Positions 2,017 through 13,445 of a DNA stretch of 38,707 nucleotides are shown here, piece by piece. A program made the translations under genes and the position numbers. Location: contig CAIPEB010000657.1 in NCBI GenBank assembly GCA_903863885.1, positions 1 through 38,707 of the forward strand, read 5' to 3'. This DNA comes from an uncultured Planctomycetaceae bacterium. Lineage in GTDB: Bacteria; Planctomycetota; Planctomycetia; Pirellulales; Pirellulaceae. Positions within the stretch are counted from its first letter, which is position 1. Every line of letters starts with the position of its first letter. The notes under the pieces were generated by a model, which was not told the origin of the DNA, searched no databases, and saw only the letters and a list, made by a program, of their open reading frames with translations.

Positions 2017-2541
2017 CTACTCTTTGCGCTTTTCGATGACGGGCGTGGAGGGTGGCGAGGCTGTCACCGGACCTCCGTTTCCAGTCGTCAAATAAACCGA
2101 CGTCCCCGCGTAGGCGAAGTTGCCCGCACGCGGAAACTGATCGACGACTCGTGCCGAATCGCCGCTTTCAGTCGCATTCATGGCAATGAAGCCGGCCTGT
2201 TTCAAGACGGACAGAGCTTCCTGAATCGGCTTGCCTCGCACGTCGGGAACTTCGGTCGGAGTCTGTGTCGGTTGAGCCGCTTCGAACATCCAGGCCGCAA
2301 CGGTGGTCCCTTCCGATACCTTTGTGCCCGGTTGCGGCGACTGGAGGTAGATCACGTCGCGCTTGATGTCTTGCCGCCAATTCTTCGGCGACAGGTAAAA
2401 CACGCCGACCTGCAACTTCAAGTCACGCAGCTGCACAATCTGCTTGGCGATGGCGACACGCTCTCCGGTCAGTTTCGGAACCTCCGAGTCCCGAGGCGCG
2501 GTCAGCAGAAAACAGACCAACACCAGTTCCACGGCGCACAT
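2017..2541 (-). CDS. Small exported protein with two PASTA domains
   Basis: This is the last gene of the four-gene minus-strand envelope operon, 174 residues. The start at 2541 is chosen because AAGGA lies about 8 bases upstream and the resulting N-terminus (MCAVELVLVCFLLTAP) is hydrophobic, like a signal peptide or membrane anchor. Longer in-frame starts would overlap the upstream gene. Two PASTA-like repeats follow: one at about 22-90 (VPKLTGERVAIAKQIV, then YLQSPQPGTKVSEGTTV) and one at about 98-160 (VPDVRGKPIQEALSVLKQAG, then VVDQFPRAGNFAYAGTSVYL). The tail is Pro/Thr-rich. PASTA domains in Ser/Thr kinases and penicillin-binding proteins bind muropeptides or beta-lactams, but no kinase or transpeptidase domain is present. 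It follows the PASTA-array gene by 58 bases and probably works with it. Confidence 0.82.
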   Translation of the reverse strand: MCAVELVLVCFLLTAPRDSEVPKLTGERVAIAKQIVQLRDLKLQVGVFYLSPKNWRQDIKRDVIYLQSPQPGTKVSEGTTVAAWMFEAAQPTQTPTEVPDVRGKPIQEALSVLKQAGFIAMNATESGDSARVVDQFPRAGNFAYAGTSVYLTTGNGGPVTASPPSTPVIEKRKE

Positions 2542-2599
2542 GCGGATGTTCCTTATACGGACTGGCTCTCCAGTCGATGATGAAATCACGGATGTGGCG

Positions 2600-5500
2600 T
2601 CAGCGTGCTTCTGCGTCGCTGACGAAAATACGGACCTGGCTTCCCGCTTCGACGGACGCTCCGGAACGCGGGTTTTGTGAGCCCACCCTGGGTTCGGAAT
2701 ACCTCCGTCCAGCGATGCCTTCCGCAAGCGTTTTGGCAATCAAGAACGCGGACCAAGCATCCTTATTGTATGCTTGGCCTTGATACATGATGATCGGCGT
2801 GAGTTCAGCACTTTGAATCCGAGCAGCTGCCGAAGTACTTGGTTCATTGAGTACATTCGGGACGGTGCGCACGGCCAGTTCCATGCGGACCGCGTTCAAT
2901 CGCACCAGGTCCACATCGCTGCGGCGGTAAATTCCGGATCGAGGCGATTGGGATTCCACCACCATATTTCCGACGAGCGCGCGATTGGTTGTCTCGCGAC
3001 TTCCCCGCACGGTGATGCTGCCTCGCAGGCCGGCGGACTGCAGCATTTCGTCGGCCCGTTGTGTCGTGACATCACTGAAGTTGGGCACTCGGACTCCCGG
3101 AACCAGCGTGACTTCGGTCCGTGGCGGTACCCGGCGGTTGCCTTGCGGCGATTGCGAGTGGACCACGTCGGATCGCCCCAATGCGCCGTCGACACGAACG
3201 GATAATCCGCCAGGCAACGCAGCGATTGCGTCTCGCGACTCCAGCAGATTGTCGCCGACGTAGTCCGGCAGCTTTACGCGCACATCCAGCTTGACGGTAC
3301 TGCCCCGCTCGTATTCAGTACCGCCCTCCGGATCCTGCACGGTGATTACGTCGGTGGGCAAACACGTGCCGACCATTTCGACGAGATATTTCTCCTCGTC
3401 GCGCAGCAGGGTGGACGCCTCCGAGACCTTCATGCCGCGCACGTCGGGCAGCACGGACACGATCGGCCCGAGTCGCACCGTCTCGCCATGACGGACGTAC
3501 GTCTTGGGCGCCGGCGACTGGCCTCGCACCGTATCCTTGTCAATTGCCCGGGCGCTGGCGTTTTCCGGCTGCAAATCCAGTTCCTGCAGTTTTTCACGCG
3601 CATTGGCAAGCGACAGATTTCGGACGTCGGGCACGGCAACATGCACGGTGAGCTTGACCTGCTCTCCTCGCGCCACCAGGGCACCGGCTGGAGGCGACTG
3701 CTCGACGACTTTGTCGGTGGAGAATGACTTGGTGGTCGCGTGCCATCCCAGGCCGCGATCCTTCAGTTCCGTTTCGGCCTCGCTCAGCAGCAGGTCAATC
3801 ACCGCGGGCGTCTGCACGGCCAACGTCAGCTTCACCGCCTGGCCCGCTGCCGCGAAACTGCCGGCTGCGGGCTGCTGCTCAATGATGATGTCCGACGGCC
3901 CTGACTCCCCAACCGGCCGGGGTTCCAACTTCGTCGTGCGCAGCAATTGCTCCGCATCGGCCAGCGAGAACTTGGTAACATCGGGGACTCGCCGCGAAGT
4001 GTTGAGCGTAATACTGGAGCCGACGGCGACCCAGGTTTCCTGTTCGGGGTCGGATGCGTCGATACGATCCGACTCGAACAGGTCAAGGAGGTTTGCAATC
4101 TTCAGTCCCAAATCCTCCAGCTTCGGTTTCGATGTCTTTACGATCTGCTCTATCAGTTCGGGAATGCACACCTGATCCGGGGCGTCTCCCGCAGTGACCG
4201 TCGCATCTGCGGCGGAAATCGAGGCCAGCGGATCAACTTTGGGCGGAACGGTGGGAGGAGCCGAAGACGCGGGCCCGACGGATGGGGGCTGTGACAGGCC
4301 GGGAATGACAATCGGCGGCAGACCCTGCTGAAGCCAGTCGGTCGAGTGCGGTTTGTTGGAGAGGATCGCAATGGTATTGCCCAGCGAGTCCTTGGCGATC
4401 ATCACATTGGCGGCCGGATTGAACAGGCCCTGCTGCTGCAGCCATCCCAGGAAGAAAATCACCACATCGTCGGCCGCGACGCCGTTGAGGTTTTGATCGA
4501 GCGAAACGCTGCCGCCCGCCGGCGGGTGTGCGGCTTGCCACGCATTCAGAGCGTCGAGCGACTGGGATGGCGTCAGCGTGATTTGCAGGCGTTGGGCGAC
4601 AATTTCCAGAATGCTCCCGACGGCACTCGCCACTTTCGCCGGATCGTTTTGATGCAGGTTCTGATCCTGCGTCTGGATCGCTTGAGTTATCGCCTGGCCA
4701 ATCGCTCCTGGCAAATTGCCTGGATCGGGTTGTTTGAGAATCGCATCGATTACGACTTTCAAGATTCCGATCAGCACGGCGGCGGCGTGGTCCACTTGCG
4801 GATCCAGTAGCACGCCCGGATCGTCATCGATGCTGATCACACCGCCGCCCGGATTTCCCGCATCCGGATTAGTGATGCCCGTATTCGGCACGTCACCCAC
4901 CAGCGGCGGATCGTCAAGCGGGGGTGTCGGATCGTTGGTGTTCGGTGAAATCAAGCCATCGTCGCCGCTGATCAGTCCCGTTTGGCTCACGTCGATAAAC
5001 TGAAGTTCATCGCCCGTGTTGATCAGTGGGCTGTTTTCCGCGGGAGACGTCACGGGACCTTGTTCGGGCGGATTTCCGGCGGTGTTCCCGGTGTTTGGGG
5101 CATCAACCGTGGAGGTGACGAGCCCGCCTCCGGTAACGAATTCCAGCGGTGATGAAGTCATTTGGTTTGCAGCGGCTTCGTCGCCGACCTCGAGAACCAG
5201 CGCCTCGCCGAGCAGCGCCGACGAACCCGCGACAAGCCCCTGTCGAAGAACGATGGTCTCCGGAGGCAGTTCGTCGCCCGCTGGCGATCCGTCGGTTGCC
5301 TTCACCAGCAGCGGCACCAGGCCCGAATCGCTTGCGGCGCTGCGTGCCGCTTCGACCTTCATCAATTCGACGGCCGGAACGGATACGACGCTGTCGACCG
5401 GCCGGGGCTTGGCGGCCGAGACGACCTGGACCTCGCCATTGACGGAATCGCCGCGACGGCGGACCTTCACGCTCTGCGCCAGAGATCCATCCGGATTGCG

Positions 5501-6616
5501 GATTGTAAGGAGGTGCACGATCTCCTGGGTCTTGCCATCGGCCCGCGGCAGGCCGAGACTCAGGACCGCGCCCGAGCCTTCGCCCGCAGCGACTTTCAGA
5601 ACTCGCGGCACGGTCGGTTTCCCGTCGTACTGAGCCAGATACTCGATATCGCCCGCGGAGGGAATCGGGCAGGCGTGCTCGACGACAAAACCCGGCAGCA
5701 GTCCTTCCACTCCAAGTGTCAACACCACTCCCTCGGCTGGATCTTCCGAGCGAGCCAACCCGACTTGGGTTGACAACTCCAGCTTGGGCAGATCGATCCG
5801 GTGATACCGTTTCTGACCGTCGAGGGTTTCCACCAGCCAGAGGCTGCGCGTGCCCGCACGCAGCGCATGATGGACCGACGTAGAGGGAAGCCGGATTTCA
5901 ATTCCGGCCTCCGCGCGGTCGATGCTCGCCGCGGGAATGCCGATCGGCCCGCCATTGGGTGCCAGCTCGACCTGGGAATTGTCGGCAAGCGGCGGGTTGG
6001 CAAAAAGCACGGCGGTCCCGTCAATCCAGTCGGCGACCAGTTTCGACGTGGAAATACTGTGCGGCATGTGCTGATCGAGCGATGGTCCGACGAAACGCTG
6101 CGGCAATTTTTCGATATCGCTTTCGGCGACCCAGCCGCGCCAGGGATTGGCGCCCACGCGCTCAAACTCGATACGCACCTTGCCCGCGTTCGCCCCTGTG
6201 ATCTGGTGCACTTCGCCCTGGCGAACCGTCCGCAGCACGGTTTCGTCGTCCTTTACCTCCGCCTTCGCGGCTGTCACACGAAGCCAACCGGGCGTCGTGT
6301 CCACAACGGCCGAATCGCCGGAAGTGCCGCCGATCAGACGGACGTCGCTTTCCGGCACGTATCCGCGCATCACCTGCCCGCCGATGCGAATCTGAATCTG
6401 GTAGTTGCTGCCGTCGACCTTGTAGATCTTGTACCGCGAACCCTTCGTCACGTAGCCGAGTATGCGGTTGCCGCTCGTCACGTTGACGCGCGGCTTGATG
6501 ATTTCGAGTTCAGTCGGGTCCTCGGCGAAGGCCTGGACGCCGGACAGCAACGAACAAGCAACGACCAGAGCGAGGCACCCGATCTTCGCGAGCGATACGG
6601 GATTGGCAGGTTTCAT
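2600..6616 (-). CDS. Large exported SH3b-PASTA array protein
   Basis: This encodes a secreted protein of 1338 residues. The start at 6616 gives a signal peptide (MKPANPVSLAK, then CLALVVACSLLSGVQAFA, cleavage near residue 31). An ATG at 6634 is an alternative, and starts further upstream overlap the preceding gene. Two SH3b-like domains lie at about 37-95 and 110-170 (pattern: G.V..G..Y.I......I.I...G...RGYV/GWV.ESD). A Pro/Asp/Gly-rich, partly helical central part has no recognisable fold. From about residue 817 to the end there are about eight PASTA-like repeats, recognised by VPDV/LPDV starts, (A)QSPPAG-type turns and V.L.V ends. The first is degenerate and the last carries a roughly 20-residue insert. 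There is no kinase or transpeptidase domain. SH3b and PASTA both suggest peptidoglycan or cell-wall binding; that function is inferred. Third gene of the operon. Confidence 0.88.
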   Translation of the reverse strand: MKPANPVSLAKIGCLALVVACSLLSGVQAFAEDPTELEIIKPRVNVTSGNRILGYVTKGSRYKIYKVDGSNYQIQIRIGGQVMRGYVPESDVRLIGGTSGDSAVVDTTPGWLRVTAAKAEVKDDETVLRTVRQGEVHQITGANAGKVRIEFERVGANPWRGWVAESDIEKLPQRFVGPSLDQHMPHSISTSKLVADWIDGTAVLFANPPLADNSQVELAPNGGPIGIPAASIDRAEAGIEIRLPSTSVHHALRAGTRSLWLVETLDGQKRYHRIDLPKLELSTQVGLARSEDPAEGVVLTLGVEGLLPGFVVEHACPIPSAGDIEYLAQYDGKPTVPRVLKVAAGEGSGAVLSLGLPRADGKTQEIVHLLTIRNPDGSLAQSVKVRRRGDSVNGEVQVVSAAKPRPVDSVVSVPAVELMKVEAARSAASDSGLVPLLVKATDGSPAGDELPPETIVLRQGLVAGSSALLGEALVLEVGDEAAANQMTSSPLEFVTGGGLVTSTVDAPNTGNTAGNPPEQGPVTSPAENSPLINTGDELQFIDVSQTGLISGDDGLISPNTNDPTPPLDDPPLVGDVPNTGITNPDAGNPGGGVISIDDDPGVLLDPQVDHAAAVLIGILKVVIDAILKQPDPGNLPGAIGQAITQAIQTQDQNLHQNDPAKVASAVGSILEIVAQRLQITLTPSQSLDALNAWQAAHPPAGGSVSLDQNLNGVAADDVVIFFLGWLQQQGLFNPAANVMIAKDSLGNTIAILSNKPHSTDWLQQGLPPIVIPGLSQPPSVGPASSAPPTVPPKVDPLASISAADATVTAGDAPDQVCIPELIEQIVKTSKPKLEDLGLKIANLLDLFESDRIDASDPEQETWVAVGSSITLNTSRRVPDVTKFSLADAEQLLRTTKLEPRPVGESGPSDIIIEQQPAAGSFAAAGQAVKLTLAVQTPAVIDLLLSEAETELKDRGLGWHATTKSFSTDKVVEQSPPAGALVARGEQVKLTVHVAVPDVRNLSLANAREKLQELDLQPENASARAIDKDTVRGQSPAPKTYVRHGETVRLGPIVSVLPDVRGMKVSEASTLLRDEEKYLVEMVGTCLPTDVITVQDPEGGTEYERGSTVKLDVRVKLPDYVGDNLLESRDAIAALPGGLSVRVDGALGRSDVVHSQSPQGNRRVPPRTEVTLVPGVRVPNFSDVTTQRADEMLQSAGLRGSITVRGSRETTNRALVGNMVVESQSPRSGIYRRSDVDLVRLNAVRMELAVRTVPNVLNEPSTSAAARIQSAELTPIIMYQGQAYNKDAWSAFLIAKTLAEGIAGRRYSEPRVGSQNPRSGASVEAGSQVRIFVSDAEAR

Positions 6617-6695
6617 CTTCAAACTCGCTTGCATGCAGTTGTTTGTCGTTCCGTCACACGACTGGTGGAACGATTGGACGAAAGCCGCTGCGGCA

Positions 6696-8456
6696 CTATT
6701 CCGCGTCGGCCTCCGCGGAATCCACCATCTTCGCATCGCGCAGGTTGAGCCAGACGTGACGAGGAGTCCCTTCGACGTTGACCTCGATTCGCGCCTGGCC
6801 GTCCTTCTTCTCGAGCACTTGATAGGTTTTGTTTCGATCCACGTGCCCGATGACCGTCGAACCGACCTTCACGGCGGCCCTGGCTGCGGTAATGCGCAGG
6901 GTCTGTCGCACAGCGACCGGCGCCGCGGGGGCGGGCGGAGGGCCCATTTCCGCGTTGCGACGAGAGACCCAACCGGTGTACTCGCGCCCTCGCACCGTGA
7001 CCGCGATCTTGATGTCTTCGTCGTCGGAATCCACCACGCGGTACTGCTCGCCCCGATTGACGTAGGCCAGCGTGCGGCCGTTAGCGCTGACGGGCACGCG
7101 AGCACCGGTGATCCGAGCGTCACCGGCTTTCCCGGCGGCTCCCGTTTCAAACGTGTACAGATACGAACCGATCTTGTCGGCCTTGTACGCGCGAACCCCT
7201 TCCTTCTCGTCGACCAGCAAGAGCGGCTCACGCTCGTGCTTCGTGTATCTGCGGTGCCTGCCATCCGCGGCGAAGAGCACCTGCGACGCGCGAATCTGCG
7301 TGCCGTCAGGTCCCCTGGGACGAAGTGACTGCTCGGGCGCAATGGTCACGTCCGCTGCCTGCCAGGCGATCGCCCCGGCACTGTTGGTCCGGTAACGCAG
7401 GTGCACAGTGAGTTGCTCCGAAGTCGCATTCTTCAATTCGAGCGTCCGCTCCGTGAAGACTCGCGGTCCCGGCTTGGGCTTGATCGAGTAGACATACGTT
7501 TCGACTTGTTTGGCATGGTACGTCCGCTCGCCGTTGTCCTGCGGATCCGGCTCAACCAGCCACAGCGACTGTCGCTCGTGGTCAAGCCACCGCTCGCCCG
7601 ACTCGCTCTCCGCCCACACCAGCACCCGGTTGGCCGCCAGAGCCTGTGTTCCCCCTTCCGCATCCGTGAACTTCCGCGACTTGCCCGCCGGGACGGTAAT
7701 CTCAAACGGTTTCACTTGTGACGGAGTACCAGGCTTCCAAATCCAAGTGAAACCACCGCTGTCTTCTCCCGCTTCCTGGCTGGCCACGCCCGCGGCAGCG
7801 CCTTTCGTCTGACTGGGCGACTTGTCCCATGTGCGACCATAAGCCCAGACTCGCAACTGTTCGTCCGTTTCATTGCGAACTTCGAACTCCTTCTCGAAGA
7901 ACCGCTGCACGCCGTCGATTTCCGCTTCGGGAAAGAACAGACGAATCAGATCATGAATCCGGTCGCGGGCGATTTGGTCGGCAGGGAAGGCCGAACCGTG
8001 GTTCAGCGGGGCTAGTTCGACTCTTGCTTTCGGACGCGGTTGACCGATCAGTCCCTGCAGCACAATGGTGGCCCGCTGCAGGTCGGCGCCGCTCTTACGA
8101 TCCGAAACTCCTTTTGCCGAATTGATGGCGCTGGAGTACCCGCTGACCTGCAGCGGAAACGCGCACAAGCCATCCTTGCCGTTGGCGGCCAGCGTGCCGG
8201 CCGCTGCCATGAACTGCATGTGCAACTCCGAATTGTTGCTCAGCCGGCGGCCCTCCACCTCTCGGTCGCCGGTTGACTGCCGGCGATCGACCTTGACCTT
8301 CTCGATTGCATCGGCCAGCCGTTCCAACCGCTCGAGGCGATCCTTGTCCTTTGCCGATAAAGACTGCTGTGCGAAACCGCTGAGTGGCATCAAGGCAACC
8401 GCCCCAACGGCAACGAAGAACGCCGAAACAAGTGACCGTGGCGTTGACGTTTTCAT
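6696..8456 (-). CDS. Exported protein with duplicated domain and two SH3b-like domains
   Basis: This encodes a 586-residue exported protein of unknown function. Residues 1-29 form a signal peptide (FFVAVGAVALMPLSGFA, cleavage before QQS), followed by a short charged helix (about 35-58). Two copies of a beta-rich domain follow, at about 188-325 and 335-437. Both begin with E.E.RN.T.EQL-like and LELKNATSEQLTV-like strands and end in matching blocks (DHERQSLWLVE with YVYS; KHEREPLLLVDE with YLYTFE). Two SH3b-like domains occupy about 447-504 (ending YTGWVSRRNAEM) and 519-578 (ending HVWLNLRDAKM). Only weak ribosome-binding sequence (GGGAA) precedes the start. It is second in the operon, 58 bases after the coiled-coil gene and 79 bases before the SH3b-PASTA gene, whose N-terminus carries the same type of SH3b domain. 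Confidence 0.85.
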   Translation of the reverse strand: MKTSTPRSLVSAFFVAVGAVALMPLSGFAQQSLSAKDKDRLERLERLADAIEKVKVDRRQSTGDREVEGRRLSNNSELHMQFMAAAGTLAANGKDGLCAFPLQVSGYSSAINSAKGVSDRKSGADLQRATIVLQGLIGQPRPKARVELAPLNHGSAFPADQIARDRIHDLIRLFFPEAEIDGVQRFFEKEFEVRNETDEQLRVWAYGRTWDKSPSQTKGAAAGVASQEAGEDSGGFTWIWKPGTPSQVKPFEITVPAGKSRKFTDAEGGTQALAANRVLVWAESESGERWLDHERQSLWLVEPDPQDNGERTYHAKQVETYVYSIKPKPGPRVFTERTLELKNATSEQLTVHLRYRTNSAGAIAWQAADVTIAPEQSLRPRGPDGTQIRASQVLFAADGRHRRYTKHEREPLLLVDEKEGVRAYKADKIGSYLYTFETGAAGKAGDARITGARVPVSANGRTLAYVNRGEQYRVVDSDDEDIKIAVTVRGREYTGWVSRRNAEMGPPPAPAAPVAVRQTLRITAARAAVKVGSTVIGHVDRNKTYQVLEKKDGQARIEVNVEGTPRHVWLNLRDAKMVDSAEADAE

Positions 8457-8514
8457 AACGTTTTCCCGAGAATAGCCGTGAAAAATGTCGCGACCGGGCG
8501 GCCACGCCTCACCG

Positions 8515-10617
8515 CTAGAAGGGTGACCACTTCGGGGGTTTCAGCTCCGGCTTCTTGATCGCGTCGTGCCACGCACCGCTGATCAGCTTGCCTCCATCCT
8601 GCATCATGTCGGAGAGATTTCCGCCGGTTTGCTTGCTGAAATTCGACAGTTCTCCACCCAGGCGATCCAGTTCCGGATTGCCGGACTTCCACGGACCTCC
8701 GAGCCTCGCATCAAGATACTTGCGGACTTTGCTGTCGATTTCCGCCGCCAGCTTGCGCAGTTCCCGGTCGGCTTTCGCCAACTCCTTGAGGAACTGCAGG
8801 TAGGCCCGCGACGCATTCTCCTGCAGTTTGTTCCGCAAGAGGTCGAGCGTACACTCGTTCAGGTTGGCCACGGAAAATTTGACATCCAGTTCAGGGCGAA
8901 ACGTCTTGACCGTGACGCGAATCAACTCATCCGTGCGGCGGGTGTCGCCGTCGATTTCGACCGTGCAACTGATCGTCCCAAACGGGTCAACGCCACTGAC
9001 GGACACCGAGCCTATCGAACGCAGTTGCAGGTAGCTTAATCTGGCACCAAGTTCGGCCTCGAAATTATGTGAGAAGTCGGTGCCGAACAACTTGATTGCG
9101 CCTTGCGACGTCAGCTTGCCGCTGCCGTCCGCGAAACTGAACACGCCGTGCGTTTCGTCGATCTTCATGCCGAACATTTCCATCCGGGCATCGACCGTCA
9201 TGTATTCGCGTTGCATGTGCAGCTTGCCTTCTCCGAGCGAGAATCCGGGGATTGCCGACTTGATCCCCGCCGCGGTCTTGAATTCGCCATCGAGCGTTCC
9301 CTTCGCGAAATCGATCTTGCCGACCGTCTCGGCCAGTCCGATCTGCGCAATCTTCAACTCCCCCTTGACTTCAATAGCCCTCACGGGAAACGTAATTGCG
9401 CAACTGGCGACTAACGCAATCACCTCCGGCGTCGATGCAACGGTCGAGATCTGAGTCTTGACTTCCAGTCGGTTCTCCTGCATCGCATAAGATCCGCCGA
9501 TGGTCCACATCGCAAACGGCGTCGGCGACAGCGGAACGGGTTGGGCAAGTTGATAGTCGACCTGCAGCTTGCCGTCTTTCCAATCCACCTTGTTTCCTGG
9601 ATACAAGATCAGATCGCTGGCCAGGATATCGACCTTCTCGAACATGACCATCTTCATGTCGAAGTGGATGCCGCCGCGCATCCCATCCGCCCCCTTGGAG
9701 AAATCCGGCACGCTCTTGAGCGTCACCGTGACCGGCAAGTCCAGATCGGCAATCGCCTGATTGCCCAAGGTCTTGATGTTGTTGAGCGAGGTTTCCTTGA
9801 AATCCGCCTCAACCTTCAAATTGTCGATCGCCGGCTCGGGCAGACCGCCAGCCTTGTACCGGAAATACAGGCCGGTCGCGTTGACTGTCAGCTGACCGGG
9901 AAGATACTCGACCTGCACTCCGAGTTGAGCCTGCGGCGAAAAGATGGAAACTCCGGCGGGCGGCGGTTTCACCTTGAACTTCATATCTCCGTCACCGACC
10001 GACATCGGCTGCGAAACCCACTTGCGAAACTCGCCATCCAGAAAGTTCCTCGCGTACTCCGCCGGATTTCGCAGCTGCTCGATCCGCGCAAACACTTCGT
10101 CTCCCAGCGTCTGACGGATCCGTCGCGATGCTTCCGCCATCGCTTCCTTTTTCGCTCGCTCGCGAAACTGACGCTCGCTGAGATTTCCGTATTTCTGGCG
10201 GTCATACTGCGCCGCTCGCCATTTCTGTTCGGCCTTCTTCAATTCCGTCTCAATCCGTTCCGCATATCCGATCGCCTCCGCCAGCTTTGGATGCGAGTCG
10301 GCGACCTTCTTGAGTTCCTGCGCAACCTGCAAAACCAATGCCGTCAGTTCATCCGGATCACCCGACGCGCCTTCGGCCACGGTCGCGGCGGCCTTCGCCT
10401 TGTCGATTGACTCACGCCACTTCTGAACCTGCGCCAGCAGCTCGACCGCCCTGGCGGCGAGCTGCTCGTCCATGCCCTCCAGAATCTGCTGTTCCTGCGG
10501 CGACAGTTCCTGGCCCGTCAGAGGCACTCCAGCAAGCAGCACCAGACAGATCACGAGACTGAGACCAGGCCGGAACGACGCGATAGAATTGACCGTTGGG
10601 AGAGAGGAGCGTGCCAT
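8515..10617 (-). CDS. Exported coiled-coil/beta protein, first gene of PASTA operon
   Basis: This encodes a 700-residue exported protein that I do not recognise. The ATG at 10617 is preferred over one at 10689 because AGAGG sits about 7 bases upstream and the N-terminus then reads as a signal peptide (LSLVICLVLLAGVPLTG). After the signal come helical, charged, coiled-coil-like segments (about 40-200, rich in E/K/A/Q). A long stretch of alternating hydrophobic beta-type sequence follows (about 210-590, for example LPGQLTVNATGLYFRY and KLHMQREYMTVDARMEMFG), then a second helical segment (about 600-650) and a short basic/proline tail. The repeated amphipathic strands would fit a surface or periplasmic beta structure; that is inference. 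It opens the four-gene minus-strand operon. Confidence 0.85.
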   Translation of the reverse strand: MARSSLPTVNSIASFRPGLSLVICLVLLAGVPLTGQELSPQEQQILEGMDEQLAARAVELLAQVQKWRESIDKAKAAATVAEGASGDPDELTALVLQVAQELKKVADSHPKLAEAIGYAERIETELKKAEQKWRAAQYDRQKYGNLSERQFRERAKKEAMAEASRRIRQTLGDEVFARIEQLRNPAEYARNFLDGEFRKWVSQPMSVGDGDMKFKVKPPPAGVSIFSPQAQLGVQVEYLPGQLTVNATGLYFRYKAGGLPEPAIDNLKVEADFKETSLNNIKTLGNQAIADLDLPVTVTLKSVPDFSKGADGMRGGIHFDMKMVMFEKVDILASDLILYPGNKVDWKDGKLQVDYQLAQPVPLSPTPFAMWTIGGSYAMQENRLEVKTQISTVASTPEVIALVASCAITFPVRAIEVKGELKIAQIGLAETVGKIDFAKGTLDGEFKTAAGIKSAIPGFSLGEGKLHMQREYMTVDARMEMFGMKIDETHGVFSFADGSGKLTSQGAIKLFGTDFSHNFEAELGARLSYLQLRSIGSVSVSGVDPFGTISCTVEIDGDTRRTDELIRVTVKTFRPELDVKFSVANLNECTLDLLRNKLQENASRAYLQFLKELAKADRELRKLAAEIDSKVRKYLDARLGGPWKSGNPELDRLGGELSNFSKQTGGNLSDMMQDGGKLISGAWHDAIKKPELKPPKWSPF

Positions 10618-11200
10618 TGCATACCTCTTTGTGTGATCATGCGGCCAAGAGTGTCGGGTACGCACCGCACTGGTTGCCGCAGTACACAAGCAATAGGACC
10701 GCTCGCAATCGCGAGCGGTCCTGCGGCGATTTCATGTATCGGCCCCGCTGAAACACTCCGGGTGATGACCTTCGCCAACACGCTTGCCGCTCCCCATCAC
10801 ATGGCGAACCTGAAGAGCGCCAAAATAACACGAGTGAAAAATAGCGATAGGACAAGCGACGCGATTCACGATTCGAAACCACGCCTGAAGATAAGGCATC
10901 GCGATGAAATAAGGATCAACGGTCAGGACCCAACCGTGAACCAAGTCAGCGGGCAGGATACCCTTTGACGTTTGCAATATCAAGAATTCGAGACGGTTTT
11001 CTCGCGACAAGTCGATGAGCCGGGGGGTGACCCCCTTTGGGCAGATTGCGACCCGTCAACTCGAAGTCTGGGTCTTGGCATCAACTGCAGCGAGCTCCAA
11101 ACACGGCCAACGCCAAATACCCCAGGTGAGCACAGTCACTGGACTGCCAGCCGGCATTCGATTCGGCAAGGCCGTCACGCAGCAAGTGACCGCTGATCTC
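10618..11200. other. Intergenic region upstream of PASTA operon, perfect hairpin
   Basis: No convincing gene was found here. Its main structure is a perfect 12-base inverted repeat at 10695-10722 with loop AATC. A short minus-strand reading frame (11010-10732, TTG start) has no recognisable motif and codon use unlike the neighbouring genes. A small GGGGG-TGA-CCCCC hairpin lies at 11023-11035. The operon promoter should lie here on the minus strand, but no good -35/-10 pair is visible. Confidence 0.5.
10695..10722. repeat. Perfect 12-base-pair hairpin
   Basis: AGGACCGCTCGC and its exact reverse complement are separated by AATC. No T-run follows on either strand, so a simple intrinsic terminator is unlikely. 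It lies 78 bases upstream of the first gene of the PASTA operon, where it could be an operator, a transcript-end structure or a dispersed palindrome. Confidence 0.75.
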
Positions 11201-11940
11201 TGTGCCGAGAAAAGTCAGCTTCCGACGTGAAGAGTGGAGACGACCGGTTTGCTGCCAACGGCTTGGGAGTTGCCGCCGCGTTTTCCACCGATGACCTGAT
11301 GATCAAAATGGGGACGGGCGACGACTCGCAGGTTGATATGGGAGACGGAAAAGACGAGCTGGTGCTCCACCGTTGTTTGTTGGGCAATGGCTTCGTCGTC
11401 GGTTTGCAGCACGACCTGACAGTGAGAATGGACCAGGGAGGAGGCGTCTTTTGTTTGCGGGACAGTTCGGTCAACGGCGGCGCGACAATTCTACTTGGTG
11501 GACTTGCCGTGGATGAGATGCTGCTTGACCTCGAAAGCTCTCAAGTTGCGGAGAATTGACAGTTACCGGTCTGGCGGGTGTGGAAACTGTGTGGTGTTTT
11601 GACATAGTCGCTCGCGGCGGAGCCTCATTCAAATTCAGATCTGGGAGCGACAAGCTCGGAATCGACGGCTTGGGCGGAGTGACTTCGCTCGTCATTGACA
11701 TGGGGGGAAGGTGATGACGAGGTGGAAATGGAATGCCTGCAGTATATCGGAGCGATGGATGTGCAGTTGGGAAACGGAGCAGACAAGCTCACCGTGGGCA
11801 GCATATGCTCAAATACCCGCTCTGCAATTGGAACCGCAAGTCTCAATTGCGGTGCGAATTCGCTGGCAATGGATATGTTCTCTTTGTACGCTCCGGACGT
11901 GCGGATCGGGACGCTGAAACTGAAGAACCTCGAAGCGTAA
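11200..11940 (+). pseudogene. Frameshifted remnant of an acidic Gly/Asp-repeat (beta-roll-like) protein
   Basis: Three adjacent plus-strand frames read as one protein if two single-base frameshifts are repaired. Piece one (11200-11556) contains KMGTGDDSQVDMGDGKDEL. Piece two (11556-11707, a different frame) contains LTVTGLAGVETVW and ends in LVIDMGG. Piece three (from about 11708 to 11940, back in the first frame) reads GEGDDEVEME, then DVQLGNGADKLTVG. The second break falls at a run of six G at about 11702-11707; removing one G gives IDMGEGDDEVEM, matching the DMGDGKDEL motif upstream. The Gly-Asp-rich turns alternating with hydrophobic strands resemble beta-roll/RTX-like repeat proteins of large secreted adhesins. 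No start codon or signal peptide is evident, so this is probably the C-terminal remnant of a longer gene, or a true gene with sequencing errors. Confidence 0.6.
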
Positions 11941-11981
11941 GCACATTTGTGCGAGTATTAGGCTGAAAGACGCAGGTGCTT

Positions 11982-12926
11982 ATGAACCGTCGGGTGTTTC
12001 TGTCATCCGTTTTGTCGGCAGCGTCCGCGACCATCGCGCCGCGGTGGGCCCGGTCCGCTGAGACTCCGCGATCCGACGTCCCGATTGCAACACTGTCCGA
12101 ATGGGCGGACCGCATCCGTCCTCTTCACGACAGGCTCAACGCACCGGGCCGGTCAGACTGGCTGGCGAAGCACCATGAGGATGGGCAGACATTCAAGCAG
12201 TATCTTGTGGGGCGAACGCGAGTCCGGGATCGATTCAGTGTGATATACATCCAGCCGCTCGGCGAGTTTGAGGGCTCTCAACAGCGGACGCTGGATCTTA
12301 CGGCCGAGTGTATGAAGCTGTTCTTCGGCCTCCCGGTCAAGGTGATGACGCGGGTTGATCTGGCCTTGCTGCCGGACGGGGCGCGACGCGTGCACCCGAC
12401 GTGGCACGTGCCGCAAGTGCTGTCGACCTACATTCTCGATAAGGTCCTCGCTCCGCGTCGTCCCGACGATGCGGTCGCGGTCCTGGGTCTTACGACATGC
12501 GACCTTTGGCCGGGAGAGGGGTGGAACTTCGTCTTTGGACAGGCGTCTCTGTCTGAGCGGGTGGGAGTATGGTCGCTTTTCCGAAATGGTGATCCGAATG
12601 GTGCCCCGTCCGCGTTTGACAAGTACCTCTTGCGATCGTTGAAGACAGCGGTTCACGAAACGGGCCACATGCTGGGTATTCCTCATTGCATCGCTTACTC
12701 GTGCTGCATGAACGGCTCGAATTCTCTGGACGAGAGCGACCGTGCCCCGTTCGAGTTCTGTCCGGAATGTCAGGCGAAGATCTGGTGGACTTGTCGAACG
12801 GAGCCGGTCTCCCGCTGGACGGCGCTGCTCGCGTTTGCCGAACGCAACCGACTCCGCGGCGATGCCGAATTCTGGCGACGCACGCTGGCCGCGTTCGGGG
12901 CAGGCCATCGCGAGGCTGGCAAATAG
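11982..12926 (+). CDS. Exported archaemetzincin (family M54 metalloprotease)
   Basis: This encodes a zinc metallopeptidase of 314 residues. The motif HETGHMLGIPHC at about 225-236, then C241, C242-M243-N and CPEC at 260-263, fits the archaemetzincin signature (HExxHxxGx3Cx4CxM, about 16 residues, CxxC). The three His would bind catalytic zinc, Glu226 is the general base, and the four Cys form a second zinc site. The start at 11982 is preferred to a GTG at 11976 because GCAGGTG lies just upstream. The N-terminus (MNRRVFLSSVLSAASATIA) has an RR-x-F-L motif like a Tat or lipophilic Sec signal, so the enzyme is predicted to act outside the cytoplasm. The family is best known from archaea and vertebrates, and natural substrates are poorly defined. 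It follows the degraded repeat gene and appears monocistronic. Confidence 0.9.
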   Translation: MNRRVFLSSVLSAASATIAPRWARSAETPRSDVPIATLSEWADRIRPLHDRLNAPGRSDWLAKHHEDGQTFKQYLVGRTRVRDRFSVIYIQPLGEFEGSQQRTLDLTAECMKLFFGLPVKVMTRVDLALLPDGARRVHPTWHVPQVLSTYILDKVLAPRRPDDAVAVLGLTTCDLWPGEGWNFVFGQASLSERVGVWSLFRNGDPNGAPSAFDKYLLRSLKTAVHETGHMLGIPHCIAYSCCMNGSNSLDESDRAPFEFCPECQAKIWWTCRTEPVSRWTALLAFAERNRLRGDAEFWRRTLAAFGAGHREAGK

Positions 12927-13054: not shown

Positions 13055-13220
13055 TGCGAGCGAAAAGCCGAGACGCAGTCGCGTAGCGACGGCCTGAAGG
13101 TAGACGTGGGTTTCAACCCACGGCCACAAAGGACTCGATTCGGCATAACTCGACTTGATGCAGCGTGGTCGGAGCGGCGTGTAACACGGGTGGACCAGCC
13201 ACCCGTGGCACCAGAGAAGT
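13055..13220. repeat. 166-base direct repeat, copy 1
   Basis: The first of two near-identical 166-base units; by eye they differ at 8 positions. The unit contains two internal hairpins: CGTGGGTT-TC-AACCCACG, and ACGGGTGG with CCACCCGT around a five-base loop. No reading frame within it looks like a protein. Confidence 0.9.
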
Positions 13221-13238
13221 GTCGTGGAACGGCTCATT

Positions 13239-13404
13239 TGCGAGCGAAAAGCCGAAACGCGGTCGCGTAGCGACGGACTGAAGGTAGACGTGGGGTTCAA
13301 CCCACGGCCGCAATGGACTCGATTCGGCATAACTCGACTTGATGCAGCGTGGTCGGAGCGACGTGTAACACGGGTGGACCAGCCACCCGTGGCACCCGAG
13401 AAGT
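13239..13404. repeat. 166-base direct repeat, copy 2
   Basis: The second copy lies 184 bases after the first and has the same two internal hairpins. It ends with the same GAGAAGT and is separated from copy 1 by only 18 bases. The spacing, length and lack of short identical units rule out a CRISPR array. Confidence 0.9.
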
Positions 13405-13407
13405 TAC

Positions 13408-13445
13408 TGACGGTAGACGTGGGCTTCAACCCACGGCAACAGCGG
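13408..13445. repeat. Partial third copy of the repeat
   Basis: This carries only the GGTAGACGTGGG...CAACCCACGGC hairpin part of the 166-base unit and ends a few bases before the ribosome-binding site of the DedA-family gene, so its hairpin would lie in that gene's 5' leader. Confidence 0.75.

Follow-up and report, generated by a model that had tools for sequence, protein, structure and literature searches.

The 38,707-nucleotide contig CAIPEB010000657.1 of an uncultured Planctomycetaceae bacterium, which was analyzed over its whole length and is referred to here as the window (contig C657), carries a putative operon of four minus-strand genes whose products combine PASTA and SH3b domains. 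Its host genome (G000) comprises 11.0 Mb in 789 contigs and is 96% complete. The genes, designated A, B, C and D in order, are separated by intergenic gaps of 58, 79 and 58 bases:

8515-10617, minus strand: gene A, 700 amino acids (aa), signal peptide by eye, no curated family
6696-8456, minus strand: gene B, 586 aa, C-terminal tandem SH3b domains after two beta-sandwich repeats, signal peptide by eye
2600-6616, minus strand: gene C, 1338 aa, with an SH3b pair, a middle part specific to its family and seven PASTA stretches (Pfam), signal peptide by eye
2017-2541, minus strand: gene D, 174 aa, two PASTA domains (190 aa from a GTG at 2589)

A sequence-only reading of this DNA had described the four genes with this spacing, PASTA in C and D, SH3b in B and C and no kinase, and its coordinates proved exact. 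Neither a kinase nor a transpeptidase domain was found by Pfam or NCBIfam in any of the four proteins. All four N-termini resemble signal peptides when judged by eye, and the proteins are therefore probably exported; for D, the upstream GTG at 2589 as a possible start would give a more usual signal sequence.

Domain architecture of the four proteins

Seven PASTA stretches were detected by Pfam in C (E 3e-52) and two in D (E 3e-15). C further comprises an N-terminal SH3b-like pair and a middle module of its own family:

6119-6508, minus strand: SH3b-like pair of C, residues 37-166, homologous to the pair in B (phmmer E 7e-12)
4337-4819, minus strand: middle module of C, residues 600-760, alignable in five C homologs
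2615-3991, minus strand: PASTA region of C, the span of five separate genome-search matches

Homology among the five C sequences extends past the PASTA region through the middle module, which contains an EF-hand/dockerin-like loop, named by eye, at residues 707-718. PASTA copy number differs among C homologs. The first PASTA domain of D bears a GVFYxxPxxWR insert common to three D homologs.

The domains of B were delimited on a predicted structure built from a four-sequence alignment, with a mean predicted local distance difference test score (pLDDT) of 62:

7557-7898, minus strand: beta-sandwich repeat 1 of B, residues 187-300, with the WAESESGERW motif (predicted model)
7146-7499, minus strand: beta-sandwich repeat 2 of B, residues 320-437 (predicted model)
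6939-7124, minus strand: SH3b barrel 1 of B, residues about 445-506 (predicted model)
6717-6917, minus strand: SH3b barrel 2 of B, residues about 514-580 (predicted model)

The two predicted barrels match the SH3b parts of wall hydrolases, including LytB (Z 8.9 over 61 residues; root-mean-square deviation, rmsd, 2.3) and NlpC/P60 enzymes. The SH3b fold of B is thus recognized through the model, the Pfam SH3_3 match (E 0.16) lying below cut-off. The motif of repeat 1 is invariant in alignments A2 and A9. In Foldseek, the beta-sandwiches matched the VPS13 VAB domain at rank 3 (E 9e-5, probability 0.92); a VIA comparison gave Z 6.6 over 134 residues, but with an rmsd of 8.7, and sequence profiles lent the VAB likeness no support.

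For A, the model, derived from two aligned sequences, is poor (mean pLDDT 53) and predicts helices at both ends with 23 short beta strands between them. Foldseek returned no match to it at E <= 0.001, and the VIA matches (LptD and OspA at Z of about 7, and helical bundles) did not rise above background. Together, A and B may comprise a beta-groove rod and, after it, a VAB-like adaptor. Such an arrangement is otherwise found in eukaryotic VPS13, and we treat the likeness as a lead only. Nothing above the Pfam cut-off was obtained for A or B, and PDB sequence searches with A, B, C and two of the X proteins described below yielded nothing convincing.

Beyond the operon, the B profile matched 14 of 397 genomes of the class, mostly through a single repeat located on some other protein. 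By eye, several of these proteins look exported, and two bear TPR repeats by Pfam. Single B repeats with an NxT ... LxPG ... RVRIWA pattern were observed on other planctomycete proteins (L035, L036, L037, L038, L024-L027, L030 and L031). Pfam has no model for this repeat domain, and one of the two TPR-bearing carriers also has a trypsin-like domain.

Recurrence, variable partners and PASTA distribution

The sequence-only reading had staked its proposal on homologs of the four genes occurring together elsewhere. They do, with A and B fused in the same genome, as a full set of four in another genus, and as linked subsets in three further genomes and on two named metagenome contigs, and because the neighborhood recurs in other genomes, we regard the operon as more than a chance assembly. 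On another contig of the host genome (C83), six consecutive genes on one strand encode D, a protein designated X, a fused A-B (1186 aa), C, a protein designated Y and a caspase-domain protein; upstream of them lie genes for an extracytoplasmic function (ECF) sigma factor and a WD40-repeat kinase. Window and C83 proteins share 28-35% identity, so C83 represents an old second copy and no recent duplicate. Genome G007, from another genus, holds the order caspase, D, X, A, B, C, Y, in a locus identical to contig JAGQPF010000284. The SH3b pairs of the window proteins were not found in the B and C homologs of C83 and G007, the two fullest relatives.

Shorter versions were recovered elsewhere. Genome G268 encodes a divergent caspase, X and an A-B fusion ending in a PASTA domain; G088 encodes an A-B fusion of 1676 aa; and in G065 a D gene directly precedes a C gene (1803 aa), the N-terminus of which contains a B repeat. 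Metagenome contig L041 carries B followed by C at its end, and L042 carries genes for a two-PASTA protein, a caspase, Y and B. Metagenome assemblies holding relatives of B are titled Planctomycetales, Planctomycetota or Planctomycetaceae. On L042 (5728-8140) the two-PASTA and caspase frames overlap, the caspase probably starting later, at a signal peptide recognized by eye. Directly downstream of the G088 fusion, a small exported-looking protein (L033:7042-7698, minus strand), for which Pfam finds nothing, contains HEGAFLK and GRSFFQFE stretches that suggest, by eye, a lysozyme-like enzyme. About 2.3 kb upstream of the fusion and on the same strand lies a gene for a patatin-like phospholipase that also has an inactive-HKD domain (L033:15086-17104, minus strand).

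Five loci contain A (the window, C83, G007, G268 and G088). B is adjacent or fused to A in all five, the two being fused in three; C, D, X and a caspase each accompany A in three loci, and Y in two. A single-sequence search detected A in 2 of 60 relatives, and its profile matched 4 of 397 genomes of the class and 3 of 343 of the phylum, the host genome being included each time and the two profile samples overlapping. One short, weak match in each sample, in G404 (34 positions, E 1.5e-4) and G587 (E 6.4e-4), was taken as chance or composition and dropped before the loci were counted. All such panel counts are lower bounds, because few first-look candidates were scored per genome (3 of 18 in the host genome). 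Within the sampled genomes, the cluster is rare and patchy. Plasmid origin was rejected, A and B having no match among 72,556 plasmid records, as was phage origin, with no relative of B in viral contigs and no PHROGs match for any of the four proteins.

Protein X combines a constant N-terminus with exchanged C-termini. The N-terminal regions (X-N) from C83, G007 and G268 match one another at E values of 1e-17 to 1e-36, while their C-terminal parts show no mutual match at E up to 10; a constant N-terminus joined to unrelated C-termini is a hallmark of polymorphic toxins. The C-terminus of G007 X is Tae4-like (E 2e-5), spanning positions 2-106 of the 125 in the family, and contains the stretches CAIRLS at 255 and HIDVWNG at 341 inside the Pfam alignment, which would supply the catalytic cysteine and histidine motifs. 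In a characterized Tae4 enzyme, the active site comprises Cys44 and His126, according to PMC3695027. No enzyme family was recognized in the C83 X C-terminus. Among the clustered X proteins, the enzyme assignment has support in one case of three. A further relative, the fourth X protein, occurs in G086 and ends in a DUF922 domain (E 1e-14) with a HEIGH motif noted by eye. The X-N region matched 3 of 387 genomes of the class and, in a chosen set of 8 genomes, 3; its only match within the host genome lies at C83. Y matched 64 of 397 genomes, nearly always over its C-terminal half, and is therefore by itself no marker of the cluster. Pfam and NCBIfam gave no match above cut-off for A, the B repeat, X-N or Y.

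Caspase genes occur in the C83, G007, G268 and L042 copies. The host genome contains two caspase-domain matches, one of them within the C83 cluster, a proximity expected by chance with a probability of about 0.3% under uniform positions. In the caspases of C83 and G007, the C14 domains retain the HG and DxCR motifs of the His-Cys dyad.

PASTA domains were searched for in seven genomes, each picked for cluster genes or relatives of these. The host genome yielded 15 matches on three contigs: seven in the window genes, five in the C83 cluster and three in an RHS-repeat protein. This last protein (C225; L010:701-7018, minus strand), with 2105 aa, RHS/YD repeats and three C-terminal PASTA domains, is the sole PASTA protein of the genome outside both clusters. 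Across the six other genomes, all 17 matches fell in cluster genes (six in G007, ten in G065 and one in G268), and three genomes had none. By Pfam, no frame with any of these 15 and 17 matches bears a kinase or transpeptidase domain. PASTA without a kinase is hence the rule in the seven genomes and no peculiarity of the window operon; since all seven were chosen for cluster genes or their relatives, the statement applies to them and is not extended to the phylum.

The host genome has 83 kinase-domain matches, some representing two pieces of one frame and none located on the window contig, and across the genome no kinase frame coincides with a PASTA frame. One of the 83 is the kinase with WD40 repeats, which is encoded as a protein of its own ahead of the C83 cluster. 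Separate kinase genes also lie near the G268 copy, together with an ECF sigma factor, and near the G065 copy. The G065 kinase (L034:47-2677, minus strand) is fused to an FGE-sulfatase domain and encoded about 6 kb from the D-C pair. A neighboring kinase is not claimed as a defining part of the cluster, given a chance level of about 14% for one this near C83 (uniform positions, 83 matches).

Surroundings of the operon in the window

The operon is flanked by opposite-strand genes: downstream, one for a CNNM/CBS/CorC-type protein, and upstream, one for an archaemetzincin-like protein. The latter (M54; 11976-12926) shows a twin-arginine leader by eye and would be an exported member of its family. 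Between it and the operon (10690-11950) no convincing gene was seen; a plus-strand frame at 11227-11559 includes a GTGDDSQVDMGDGKDEL stretch reminiscent of calcium-binding repeats and is perhaps a gene remnant, as judged by eye. A 12-pair hairpin at 10695-10722 (AGGACCGCTCGC/GCGAGCGGTCCT) lies upstream of gene A on its strand. Farther on, at 13055-13441, a 166-base direct repeat, with copies 95% identical and a spacing of 184, overlaps the frame start of a VTT-domain gene and holds three 35-base copies containing an inverted repeat of the GTGGGTTTCAACCCAC type.

Proposed function, rival explanations and significance

The PASTA proteins of the operon were compared with several known kinds of system. 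C and D resemble PASTA Ser/Thr kinases (PrkC/PknB, NF033483) in matching the C-terminal, PASTA-bearing part of the model; they lack the kinase domain, however, and score 127 bits (C) and 48 bits (D) against a cut-off of 450, which rules out membership. PASTA penicillin-binding proteins (SpoVD type, TIGR02214) are matched at the C-terminal end of the model, at 20-23 bits against 688, and are likewise ruled out, as Pfam finds no transpeptidase domain. The RHS protein of the same genome shares kinase-free PASTA domains by Pfam, but differs in its RHS/YD repeats, and no relatives of A-D were noticed alongside it by eye.

Polymorphic toxin systems offer a closer parallel. As described in the available excerpts of PMC3482391, polymorphic toxins join a constant N-terminus to swapped enzymes, and in their systems caspase-like proteases serve as processing peptidases, with SH3 domains acting as wall anchors on the side of the producer; PASTA is not mentioned in those excerpts. 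X shares the constant N-terminus and unrelated C-terminal parts, and caspase and SH3 domains are present in both. The cluster differs in that no immunity gene was recognized, its caspase is a separate protein and the window copy has no X. Like the type VI secretion effector Tae4 (PMC3695027), the C-terminal part of G007 X has Cys and His motifs, and it aligns with most of the length of that family; G007 X is, by contrast, a protein with a signal peptide, by eye, encoded in a PASTA cluster.

None of the tested kinds fits all features of the cluster. Its linkage, the A-B fusion, the common middle of C, the exchanged X C-termini and the intact dyad motifs of the caspases are shown by the sequences, and from these we infer export, attachment to the wall, assembly into a complex, processing and purpose. 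The sequence-only reading had known of no described equivalent, and none was found by title and abstract in the open-licence literature on PASTA, caspases, giant proteins and planctomycetes, for one topic among 10 of 274 papers. The nearest published idea seen is a remark in PMC7159879 that lists PASTA among the peptidoglycan-associating effector domains of other conflict systems.

We propose, with a probability of about 0.4, that the window genes represent a reduced copy of a Planctomycetota accessory cluster, the products of which form an exported, envelope-anchored assembly holding variable hydrolases under caspase control. A and B, fused in three of their five loci, would act as one building block, and the long PASTA protein C and the two-PASTA protein D would hold it at the wall as anchors or spacers; in the window copy, B and C additionally bear the tandem SH3b domains. 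In fuller copies, X would be the cargo, pairing a conserved N-terminal docking domain with an interchangeable hydrolase, and the exported caspase-like protease would process or release it with the help of Y. The window copy might be served by X, Y and the caspase of the C83 cluster, or might be a purely structural wall unit in which the SH3b pairs take over the contacts. The sequence-only reading had taken the four genes, by inference, for a dedicated envelope system that binds peptidoglycan or another wall polymer. The recurrence of an apparently exported, kinase-free unit upholds part of this view, but the set is larger than four genes, and the caspase, X and Y of the fuller copies make a mere wall-binding role too narrow.

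Several observations weigh against this proposal. The window copy lacks X, Y and caspase genes, and none of the three was found near the A-B fusion of G088 or the C-D pair of G065. X was seen in only four proteins, of which the one in G086 lies outside any cluster and matches only part of X-N (E 2.8e-11). The Tae4 likeness of G007 X scores 24.9 bits, or 21.9 bits with the whole protein, below the Pfam cut-off of 27, and the C-terminus of G268 X resembles a C39/papain-type peptidase by eye, with no match in Pfam. No immunity gene was recognized beside X in C83, G007 or G268, although unfamiliar families could hide one. Within the operon itself, a terminator-like site occupies the A-B gap at 8489-8506, in a scan that as a whole was near chance (14 sites found versus 10.7 expected, standard deviation 3.2).

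The strongest competitor, which we consider somewhat unlikely, is self-directed wall maintenance, whereby the PASTA and SH3b domains attach to the peptidoglycan of the cell itself, which the amidase or peptidase of fuller clusters remodels or repairs without any role in conflict. The lack of a recognized immunity gene is what an own-wall target would lead one to expect, and the Tae4/NlpC-like part of one X, the SH3b likeness to LytB and NlpC/P60 wall enzymes and the small exported-looking protein without a Pfam family adjoining the G088 fusion all agree with it. The unrelated X C-termini, one of them DUF922 and another cysteine-peptidase-like by eye, nevertheless better suit variable targets, and the patchy spread of A (4 of 397 genomes in the class, including the 34-position match) suits an accessory trait.

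Distinctly improbable is the view that these are plain surface or fiber proteins, in which PASTA domains and beta-sandwich repeats serve as structural spacers without binding the wall, and the neighboring genes are passengers. It would account for the single B-like repeats on other proteins and for the variable PASTA copy number of C, but the linkage of caspase, X and Y repeated in separate genera, the A-B fusion and the common non-repeat module of C speak against it. A marginally poorer prospect, kept because kinase genes lie near C83, G268 (downstream of A-B, with the ECF sigma factor) and G065, the last of which raised our estimate slightly, is an extracellular sensor arm whose PASTA proteins bind wall fragments and signal to a separate kinase encoded nearby; against it stand the chance level at C83, the kinase-free window contig and the absence of a recognized kinase among the frames scanned, which were not all frames, on the G007, G088 and L042 stretches.

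The caspase-controlled assembly may also be read more broadly, though this is doubtful, as a new class of envelope system, in which a PASTA/SH3b scaffold would display hydrolases through X-N, the caspase would free them, and PASTA in the carrier genomes would serve this system and the RHS protein instead of kinase signaling. PASTA domains are usually regarded as sensing parts in kinases and as anchors in penicillin-binding proteins. Neither kind of protein carries them in the seven genomes tested, and nearly all belong to a recurring cluster with a caspase and swapped enzymes. A, the B repeat, X-N and Y, which lack a Pfam or NCBIfam model above cut-off, are four families that can now be searched for. 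If the proposal is true, secreted bacterial caspases would gain a substrate and a place of action, and wall-anchored enzymes would have a new mode of display; the cluster suggests a surface machine that holds and releases enzymes.

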